DNA of 64,000 nucleotides, taken from the NCBI GenBank assembly GCA_029262455.1, contig JAJCZJ010000052.1, positions 1 to 64,000 of the forward strand, in the 5' to 3' direction. Below are positions 26,874-29,271 of this stretch, in pieces. This stretch comes from Deltaproteobacteria bacterium. GTDB taxonomy: Bacteria > Desulfobacterota > Binatia > HRBIN30 > CADEER01. Below the pieces are notes generated by a model. The model was not told the origin of the DNA. It searched no databases and was given only the letters and a program-made list of their open reading frames with translations. The position numbers and the translations under genes are program-made. Within the stretch, counting starts at the first letter, position 1, and each line of letters opens with the position of its first letter.

Positions 26874-27929
26874 TCACTCGGTCCGCGGCAGTCGGACCTT
26901 CATCGCCAACATCAGACTGAAATCGGCGCCGCGCTCGACTCCGCTCAGATTATTGACTCCAAAGAGCTGAAAGGTCAGACCTCGGCGTGGAGTGAAGTTC
27001 AAACCGAGACCAAGCTCCAGAACCTCTCCTTCCAGGAGGCTGGCGCCGCTTCCACGAATCGGGCTGGTGTAGAAGGCCTGATGCAAGAATGTCGTCCAAC
27101 GTTCGGTGAGGGCAAGCTCCAATGCGAGGGCCTGCGAAAACATCGGCTTCAGAGATATCGCACCCGCCGCCGGTTTGATCGGGCCAATCGGGTACACAAG
27201 GTTGGCGTTCGCATAGACGAACAGCCGCGAAAACAGCTGCTCCTGCAGCGCCACACCAATCCCGAAGTCCGGTTTGCCACTGCCAACAGCCTGGTGTCGG
27301 TTGCCGCTCGGGAGCTTCAAGCCAAAACGAAGCGAGGTGGTCGGCCACTTCTCCTCTAGCGGCACTTCGAGCTTGCCTGAAAACCATAGATCGCCGAGCT
27401 CGAAACCGACCTGCCCGGCGCGTAATAAATCGGTGTCCCCGCGCCGCACCCTGAACTCTCCGAAACTGTTGTCGGGGTAAAGACTTCGCTCGACGTTACG
27501 CAATCCTACGAGCGACTCAACCCCATCGATGAAGCCATCGAGAAATCCACCGTATCGAGTCAGAAAGGGCAGATGGATTCCGACCTCGACGCGGTCGAGG
27601 ATTCCATACCGCAGACCGAAGACCGTTCGATTGGTTTCGAACTTCAACCTCGATTCGATGCGACCGGTCGAGGTCCCGATCACATCGCTTTCGGTCGTTT
27701 CGAAGTCGAGCTGCCACTCCCCAATCGATACGACGCGCGCGCCTTCAAACGGTAGCTGAAGGAAGATCAGCTGGATCGGATGAAAGTTTCGTGTCGGCGC
27801 AGGCCCAGCGAACCGGTAGCCTGGGTCCTCAGCCAGACCATCGAGAGCCAACACCGAAGTCGTTTGCGACAGCAGAATAAGCGCCGCAACGTAGTGCGAC
27901 CAACCAGCTGCCTTCGTCGGGATGCTCAC
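26874..27929 (-). CDS. DUF3187-type outer-membrane beta-barrel
   Basis: A 351-residue exported protein with a signal peptide (ALILLSQTTSVLA). The mature part opens FAGPAPTRNFHPIQLIFLQLP, typical of DUF3187 proteins, and continues as repeated amphipathic strands (RLKFETNRTVFGLRYGILDRVEVGIHLPFL; LFVYANANLVYPIG; LELGLGLNFTPRRGLTFQLFG), ending in a strand with MKVRLPRTE. It probably sits in the outer membrane. It is the last gene of a three-gene chain with the deiodinase-like selenoprotein; its ATG overlaps the preceding stop (ATGA, 27929-27926). Confidence 0.85.
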   Translation of the reverse strand: MSIPTKAAGWSHYVAALILLSQTTSVLALDGLAEDPGYRFAGPAPTRNFHPIQLIFLQLPFEGARVVSIGEWQLDFETTESDVIGTSTGRIESRLKFETNRTVFGLRYGILDRVEVGIHLPFLTRYGGFLDGFIDGVESLVGLRNVERSLYPDNSFGEFRVRRGDTDLLRAGQVGFELGDLWFSGKLEVPLEEKWPTTSLRFGLKLPSGNRHQAVGSGKPDFGIGVALQEQLFSRLFVYANANLVYPIGPIKPAAGAISLKPMFSQALALELALTERWTTFLHQAFYTSPIRGSGASLLEGEVLELGLGLNFTPRRGLTFQLFGVNNLSGVERGADFSLMLAMKVRLPRTE

Positions 27930-28546
27930 GGCTCAGAACGCCCGTGCGAGGGTCCTGAGGAAACGACAGCCTCCAACGAGTGCTCCAGGCTCTCGAGGTC
28001 GAAGTCGCGGCCGAGCGCGACCGCGCGATGTGCTGCCAGAGTAATTTCCCCGTCGATGCCGAACAACAACACATCGAACCATCCTACAGGACCTGCGCTA
28101 GCCGGGACCACGCACGGAATCGAAACCTTGTGATCTTCGACATACGCGTTGGCGCGACGCATTCGATCGATCATCGTAGTCGCAGTCGCGTCGCCGGAAA
28201 AGACGAACAGGAACTGCACCTGACTGCCATACCGGCGGTCCAGGCGCTGGAACGCTTCGAGCAACGCCATCTCGCGCTCGCTCGAGCCGCCCATAGCAAG
28301 CAGCGCCACTGCCTTTTGACCGAGAAAGTCGCTGATCCGCACCGGCTCGTACAACGCCCCCGCGTTTTCCCGAGTGATCTCACGTTGACCCACTTTGAAG
28401 TCATAAAACCTGAGCGGCGTGAGCTCTAGGACATAGAAGTTGAGTGGACTGATTGAAGTCGCCGATCCTGTAGCCGCAGACAATGTGACGAACGCAGCGA
28501 TCAAGGTGCACGCATGCCTGCTTCCGCGACCACCTGAGCGCCTCAT
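27926..28546 (-). CDS. Sec-less deiodinase-like thioredoxin-fold homologue, exported
   Basis: A 206-residue protein starting at 28546, where ATGA joins it to the upstream selenoprotein stop. Residues 1-30 look like a signal peptide. It aligns with the selenoprotein next door: ELTPLRFYDF against ELLPLRVYDL, RISDFLGQKAVALL against RLSDFRGFKPVALV, and YGSQVQFLFVF against YRNEVQFLLVY. Where the neighbour has GSYT-U-PPF this one has MGGSSERE, so Ser89 falls at the Sec position and no Cys replaces it. It therefore looks like a tandem duplicate that has lost redox chemistry and may be a structural or binding partner. Confidence 0.8.
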   Translation of the reverse strand: MRRSGGRGSRHACTLIAAFVTLSAATGSATSISPLNFYVLELTPLRFYDFKVGQREITRENAGALYEPVRISDFLGQKAVALLAMGGSSEREMALLEAFQRLDRRYGSQVQFLFVFSGDATATTMIDRMRRANAYVEDHKVSIPCVVPASAGPVGWFDVLLFGIDGEITLAAHRAVALGRDFDLESLEHSLEAVVSSGPSHGRSEP

Positions 28547-29271
28547 GGCTGAACGCCTCCAAGTCTCGCCAGCTCCTCTTCGATCGCCGCCTCGAGTGGA
28601 CCCGGACGAAAACCGAACGGGCCGCGTGCCCCCTTGAACGCGATCCTTCCATCTCTCCCGACCAGGTACAGCCGGTCTGGCAGCGCGTTGTACGCGGTCA
28701 TCGTGCTGTCGTCGAGGTCGTCGATCAGGCACGGCATGGCGATCTCGAGGTCGTTGACGCAGCTGTTGGCAACCTGAAAACGCTCGACACTCGAAGTCGG
28801 GTGCTCGACGTACCGCAGGCGTGGGTTGACCTGAACGCTCCACCCATCGGCCGGATGAGCTTCGCGAATGTATACGAGAAGAAACTGCACTTCATTGCGG
28901 TAGCGTTCGTAGAGATCGTCGATGGCGCCAACCTGGCTCCGAAAAGGCGGTCAGGTATAGCTCCCGAAGACGAGCGCGACCGGCTTGAATCCACGAAAAT
29001 CGCTCAGCCGGATCGCACCGTTCTTCCTAGGCACCTCTCGATAGTGTGTCGCCAGGTCCAGGTCGTAGACCCGCAATGGAAGCAGCTCGAAGTCCGGCGC
29101 GAGGTCGCCCTCATCGACCAGGTCGCTGCGCTTCCAGTAGTCGACCATTTCGCGAAAGAACTCTACGACGCGCCACGACGGCGCCTCAGCCGACACTCCG
29201 AACGCAGGATATCGCACAAAGCCAAGCAAAACGGTCACGAGCAATGTCTGTATCAGCAGTGTCTTGGTCAT
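28543..29271 (-). CDS. Iodothyronine-deiodinase-like selenoprotein, in-frame UGA at 28953-28951
   Basis: Read through the UGA, one frame of 243 codons gives a 242-residue exported protein (signal peptide from the ATG at 29271, LLIQTLLVTVLLGFVRYPAFG). Sec is residue 107 in VALVFGSYT-U-PPFRSQ, matching the deiodinase active site GS-x-T-U-PPF. The later VYIREAHPADGW is the deiodinase block that includes the conserved His and Glu. The C-terminus (DRLYLVGRDGRIAFKGARGPFGF) is also typical. Eukaryotic members remove iodine from thyroid hormones; bacterial ones have no settled substrate. It heads a three-gene chain (ATGA links). The two halves would be called as separate genes at 28951-29349 and 28543-28890 if UGA were read as stop. 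Confidence 0.93.
28921..28953 (-). promoter_or_regulatory. Selenocysteine UGA with candidate bSECIS hairpin
   Basis: On the minus strand the UGA is 28953-28951. Downstream, GGAGCCA pairs with TGGCGCC around the loop GGT (loop at 28933-28931), with one A-G mismatch in the stem. The loop starts 17 bases after the UGA and carries GGU, as in the E. coli fdhF element. Pairing judged by eye. Confidence 0.65.

Follow-up and report, generated by a model that had tools for sequence, protein, structure and literature searches.

We propose that a minus-strand gene in this window, by which we mean the whole stretch of 64,000 nucleotides analysed, encodes a selenoprotein of the deiodinase family, and that the gene beside it encodes a related protein without selenocysteine. 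As a whole, we hold with good confidence that the pair is best explained as a selenocysteine-containing, deiodinase-type periplasmic reductase accompanied by a dead partner. The features concerned are the following.

28543 to 29271, minus strand: deiodinase-like selenoprotein gene (242 aa, Sec107; signal-type hydrophobic N-terminus; predicted thioredoxin-fold domain from about residue 53)
28951 to 28953, minus strand: in-frame UGA, read as selenocysteine, in GSYT-U-PPF
28924 to 28940, minus strand: bSECIS-type hairpin with a GGU loop at 28931-28933, covarying in relatives
27926 to 28546, minus strand: probable Sec-less deiodinase paralogue, the partner (206 aa; active-site residues lost; hydrophobic N-terminus)
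26874 to 27929, minus strand: DUF3187 protein (351 aa; Pfam 39.3 bits, cut-off 24)

The selenoprotein frame starts with an ATG at 29271, passes through a single UGA at 28953-28951 and ends at a UGA stop at 28545-28543. An earlier sequence-only reading had joined two minus-strand open frames over that one UGA into a protein of 242 residues, with GSYT-U-PPF at the joint and VYIREAHPADGW after it in the same frame; its coordinates and content are correct, and both segments are present in the read-through translation. The profile search it suggested gave a match to Pfam T4_deiodinase (PF00837) that covers residues 53-231 and runs over the joint (E 5.4e-29; 101.6 bits against a curated cut-off of 27; model positions 74-234 of 237). 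The NCBIfam model NF038285, “deiodinase family protein”, matches at 191.9 bits (E 2.1e-56), which is below its cut-off of 250 and restricted to the model's latter portion (positions 192-340 of 347). Pfam AhpC-TSA matches too (E 5.9e-7; 29.9 bits, cut-off 26). The nearest solved structures by sequence are mouse DIO3 (4tr3, E 4.7e-24) and DIO2 (9h48, E 2.2e-20), followed by the next at 0.012. A predicted model built with 30 rows (mean pLDDT 81.4, pTM 0.79) has as its top fold matches DIO2 (Z 19.4, rmsd 2.8, 170 residues aligned) and DIO3 (Z 18.7, rmsd 3.2, 171 aligned), with ResA-like and peroxiredoxin folds, AhpE among them, at Z 15-17 (best 16.8), and Foldseek again ranked DIO2 and DIO3 as the first two. 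Membership of the product of 28543 to 29271 in the deiodinase family, as a selenoprotein, is well supported by these comparisons. Its export, also claimed earlier, is very likely: the hydrophobic N-terminal stretch is there, and is found in two orthologues as well, though export itself is read from the sequence.

The UGA is almost certainly translated as selenocysteine, judging by the host's gene content and by conservation among relatives. Profile searches of the host genome (7.34 Mb, 127 contigs) recovered selB (375 bits, cut-off 242), selA (562 bits) adjoining selB on one contig, selD (272 bits) and one tRNA-Sec gene (selC) above cut-off, with the anticodon tca. The sequence-only reading had proposed looking for these four genes, counting a lack of selB and selC against itself, and all four are present. 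It had likewise counted against itself a normal stop in relatives with nothing conserved after it; conservation instead runs on past the UGA. The selD match (L040, G000:C11:27816-28724) lies in an open frame of 749 residues, more than twice the length of the model, and is possibly a fusion. Another contig of the host genome holds a second deiodinase-like gene interrupted by an in-frame TGA.

Among 193 related genomes, the window's own counted in, PF00837 at E 0.001 or better matched 35 places in 27 genomes, tallies that are lower bounds, another profile picking up further places within the class. An in-frame TGA interrupts 27 of the 35, one of them also with a TAG; the other eight lack it, and one of these is the partner gene in genome G020. 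The TGA falls at the active-site position in all 26 places whose frame was read, the 27th place being in G139. selA is present in each of the 23 genomes that carry a TGA form and in 162 of the 193 relatives as a whole (one-sided Fisher p 0.014), modest evidence given that most relatives carry selA. Four genomes have only TGA-less matches, and two of them, G099 with a Cys form and G126 with a Ser form, gave no selA match. Sec forms occur in records of Acidobacteria, Rhodospirillales, Rhodospirillaceae, Alphaproteobacteria, Phycisphaerae, Verrucomicrobia and Planctomycetaceae, Cys forms in Planctomycetaceae and Schlesneria records, and a Ser form in one Phycisphaerales record. A wider protein search of genome contigs returned 15 loci, two of which were not used (L072, L082) and two of which repeat G003 and G020 (L068, L069). 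Viral contigs searched with the selenoprotein yielded no relative, and a plasmid search yielded a single record, a Mycolicibacterium plasmid gene annotated as deiodinase-like that is 27.9% identical over 65% of the query.

We hypothesize, with little doubt, that SelB would recode the UGA with the aid of a hairpin lying 14-30 bases on. With the U of the UGA counted as 1, positions 14-20 pair with 24-30 around the loop GGU at 21-23, and in the window six of the seven pairs are formed, with an A.G mismatch at 16/28. The GGU-loop hairpin reported in the sequence-only reading is therefore found, as weak evidence in the window alone and as strong evidence across relatives. The predicted fold of the 50-base stretch beginning at the UGA is a different structure, and its stability is equalled or exceeded by 188 of 200 shuffles (z +1.31). 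A rule of at least six of seven pairs with G first in the loop, the loop criterion (G in a small apical loop) being taken from PMC1088965, is satisfied at 11 of the 1675 TGA sites on the two strands of the window. With the window's stretch no more stable than its shuffles, the case for the hairpin rests on the relatives. Over 17 loci in a common register, 92.4% of 119 cells are paired, against 59.4% in shuffles, and 31 cells are double-changed, against 10.2 in shuffles and 9-16 in versions slid along the sequence. For paired cells, double-changed cells and the covariation score alike, the observed value was reached by none of 500 shuffles. The other two of the five measures are less clear, the count of pairs changed on both sides being reached by 184 of 500 shuffles and that of further pair types by two of 500. 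Pair 16/28 is unpaired in four of the 17 rows, including the window, and pair 20/24 in three. These 17 were drawn from 25 UGA contexts; L002, L019 and L038, a membrane-fused subfamily with another predicted hairpin, were excluded, as were L027, L028, L029, L030 and L033, in which the stem carries a four-base loop and the register is moved by one. Rfam at gathering thresholds gave no match over the window, which we did not count against the hairpin.

The selenocysteine, Sec107, would lie in a deiodinase-type active site with a proton relay made up of Ser104, Thr106, Tyr134, Glu137 and His139. The protein alignment on which this is based comprises the window protein plus 29 of the 38 stretches extracted. 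Its rows were picked for TGA, and the presence of Sec in 30 of 30 rows follows from that choice. Excluded were L001, which equals the window, second copies in L024 and L026, and L026, L029, L031, L033, L034 and L078, including Trp, Ser and Cys forms. Seven other residues are invariant in all 30 rows (Ser104, Thr106, Pro109, Phe110, Glu137, His139 and Pro140), Tyr134 is kept in 29 and Trp144 in 23. Matched by distance from Sec, Ser104, Thr106, Tyr134 and Glu137 correspond to DIO2 Ser127, Thr129, Tyr157 and Glu160, and His139, Pro140 and Trp144 to DIO2 His162, Pro163 and Trp167. The relay proposed for DIO2 in PMC11592359 consists of Ser127, Thr129, Tyr157, Glu160, His162 and His182. Five of these six are conserved here (S104, T106, Y134, E137 and H139 in the window). 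The equivalent of His182 appears not to be, with His in one of 30 rows at the nearest column; the window has His157 nearby, where the alignment is uncertain. The residue at U+3 is Phe in all 30 rows (Phe110 in the window), and the site is accordingly neither CxxC nor UxxC.

The selenoprotein gene is the first of an overlapping string, its stop and the start of the partner gene sharing ATGA, and the stop of the partner gene and the start of the DUF3187 gene sharing GTGA. The sequence-only reading had placed the selenoprotein in its own operon. An overlapping gene string does exist, but that description was incomplete, as the string also holds the Sec-less paralogue and the DUF3187 gene. A general link of DUF3187 to the pair was considered and dropped, no such gene being recognised by eye among the open frames after the G020 pair.

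The partner at 27926 to 28546 is probably a Sec-less deiodinase paralogue, and probably exported. Against Pfam it gave no match, PF00837 included; the corresponding protein of G020 matches PF00837 at 31 bits (cut-off 27), and the window's partner as query retrieves the window's own selenoprotein at E 4.5e-5. A profile of the three partners scores the exported deiodinases at 104-121 bits and all other places at 69 bits or below, which fits a local duplication. Opposite Sec, the three partners carry Ser, Ala and Thr in an alignment made uncertain there by gaps, and none retains an intact EAHP motif. Cys181 (enzyme numbering) is kept in all six enzymes and partners, and is Cys in only four of 30 rows of the wider family. 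A hydrophobic N-terminal stretch is present in all six proteins, weakest in the G003 partner. The predicted partner model (mean pLDDT 77.2) has a thioredoxin fold with no clear preference for deiodinases, its top matches being general thioredoxin folds (Z 14.4), and DIO2 (13.5) and DIO3 (13.4) are tied with many others.

The distribution of the partner follows that of the exported enzyme. Of the 148 genomes searched within the class, three (G000, G003 and G020) have strong matches (at least 244 bits), and the window's partner alone as query finds the same three among the 193 relatives. Weaker matches to the profile occur in 31 more genomes of the class, most or all of which are to deiodinase-like genes, and 395 genomes sampled evenly across the phylum added no strong match. 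These three are also the genomes with the exported enzyme subfamily, whose members form one clade (support 100/99). The pair is complete and adjacent in G000 and G020. In G003, which belongs to the window's genus, the contig of the enzyme breaks off within the neighbouring partner gene, and a very similar partner opens a different contig. We found no description of such a partner next to a selenoprotein of this kind in the open-licence PMC literature.

Several other deiodinase-like loci were observed alongside the pair. One group (L002, at 976-2073 stop to stop on G000:C1, with L019 and L038) represents a second type of selenoprotein with membrane-like hydrophobic N-terminal segments and a different predicted hairpin downstream of the UGA. 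On G139:C307 (L057/L026), three deiodinase-like genes stand in a row; in one of them TGG (Trp) occupies the Sec position, giving GSITWPPF, next to a gene that reads GSLTUPYC. Either a single-base change has converted a Sec codon to Trp, or the TGG is a sequencing error. In another subfamily (L045, L052, L056), the deiodinase-like gene adjoins, by eye, a biotin synthase-like gene, and F420 biosynthesis-like genes come next. Family f5 (L031, L034) reads TGAVTSPMC, with Ser at the Sec place and Cys at +3, and G126, one of its two genomes, has no selA match.

If the UGA were an ordinary stop, the locus would be a pseudogene or two separate short proteins. Hairpins do arise by chance, as the 11 of 1675 TGA sites attest, and shuffled versions of the window's stretch fold just as well; however, conservation past the UGA in several phyla, a covarying hairpin and the full Sec machinery stand against this explanation, which we dropped on those grounds and regard as highly improbable. 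What the selenoprotein does is far more evenly balanced. By homology, we favour, with some reservation, a one-Sec reductase, in which the selenolate would attack a soft electrophile, for instance a halogen on carbon, an oxygen centre or a sulfur centre, and a thiol would regenerate the enzyme. Within that chemistry, halogen removal and the reduction of peroxides or disulfides are about equally likely.

One serious candidate is a periplasmic peroxidase or thiol-disulfide enzyme, in which Sec107 would reduce peroxides or disulfides and the likeness to deiodinases would reflect ancestry only. The AhpC-TSA match (E 5.9e-7) and the similarity of the model to AhpE and ResA-like chains (Z 16-17) point that way, and a redox function was thought possible for bacterial deiodinase-like selenoproteins by Zhang et al. 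2005 (PMC1088965). 1-Cys peroxiredoxins and ResA-like proteins have both the thioredoxin fold and the AhpC-TSA match in common with the window protein. However, deiodinases outscore them in sequence and in fold, the window protein has no CxxC or UxxC (Phe at U+3 in 30 of 30 rows), and it retains the EAHP motif and the five relay residues of deiodinases. We consider this function plausible but somewhat short of an even bet. Slightly less probable in our estimation, and likewise short of even, is a periplasmic reductive dehalogenase of halogenated aromatics such as iodo- or bromophenols or halotyrosines. The Sec, the five relay residues and the His and Trp positions match the animal enzymes, but no halogen-linked family was recognised by eye among those common to at least three of 28 compared regions. 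Nor, in the same 28 regions, did we see by eye a conserved neighbour of the exported subfamily that hints at a substrate.

For the partner, we propose with even confidence either way that it serves as a dimer partner or regulator of the Sec-containing reductase. Animal deiodinases require dimerisation for activity, according to PMC11592359, and because of this the partner may be one half of a heterodimer. A more specific version is speculative and rather unlikely: a periplasmic heterodimer of a Sec subunit and a translation-coupled dead subunit, replacing the animal homodimer, which would remove halogen from natural halogenated aromatics at the expense of a thiol.

The selenoprotein adds one more member to a known family, of which the exported pair is a variant. 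The sequence-only reading had spoken of an unexplored role, which is fair as to function; however, bacterial deiodinase-like selenoproteins have been known since 2005, as statements in four papers attest (PMC1088965, PMC2398784, PMC9312934, PMC13188914). The Sargasso Sea survey of that year lists four Sec and six Cys sequences (PMC1088965), and the 2008 Global Ocean Sampling study, whose table has no motif, gives 22 Sec and 21 Cys sequences (PMC2398784). The family passages of reviews from 2022 and 2026 give its motif as UxxC (PMC9312934, PMC13188914), and the latter places it among families found by bioinformatics with largely uncharacterized functions. The window protein resembles the family, as outlined in the two marine surveys, in its PF00837 match, UGA-encoded Sec and bacterial SECIS. 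It differs from the motif given in those reviews in having UPPF, with Phe at U+3, and from the family as these texts describe it in its probable export and in its pairing with a Sec-less paralogue. With animal DIO2 and DIO3 (9h48, 4tr3) it shares the TUPPF site, the Ser/Thr/Tyr/Glu/His relay, the start of the EAHPxDGW loop and the thioredoxin fold, whereas identity in structural alignment is 28-29% and the sixth relay His appears not to be conserved in the bacterial rows. In our tree, which excluded L036, L068, L072, L082 and second copies and in which L013 and L069 are the same record, the animal enzymes sit on a branch of length 2.05; the tree, rooted at its midpoint, does not fix where they branch.

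The window enzyme retains most of the animal relay and has beside it a naturally occurring partner that is apparently dead, such that one small operon could serve to test both the reaction chemistry and whether a dimer is needed. A partner without an active site makes the function of the bacterial family easier to test.
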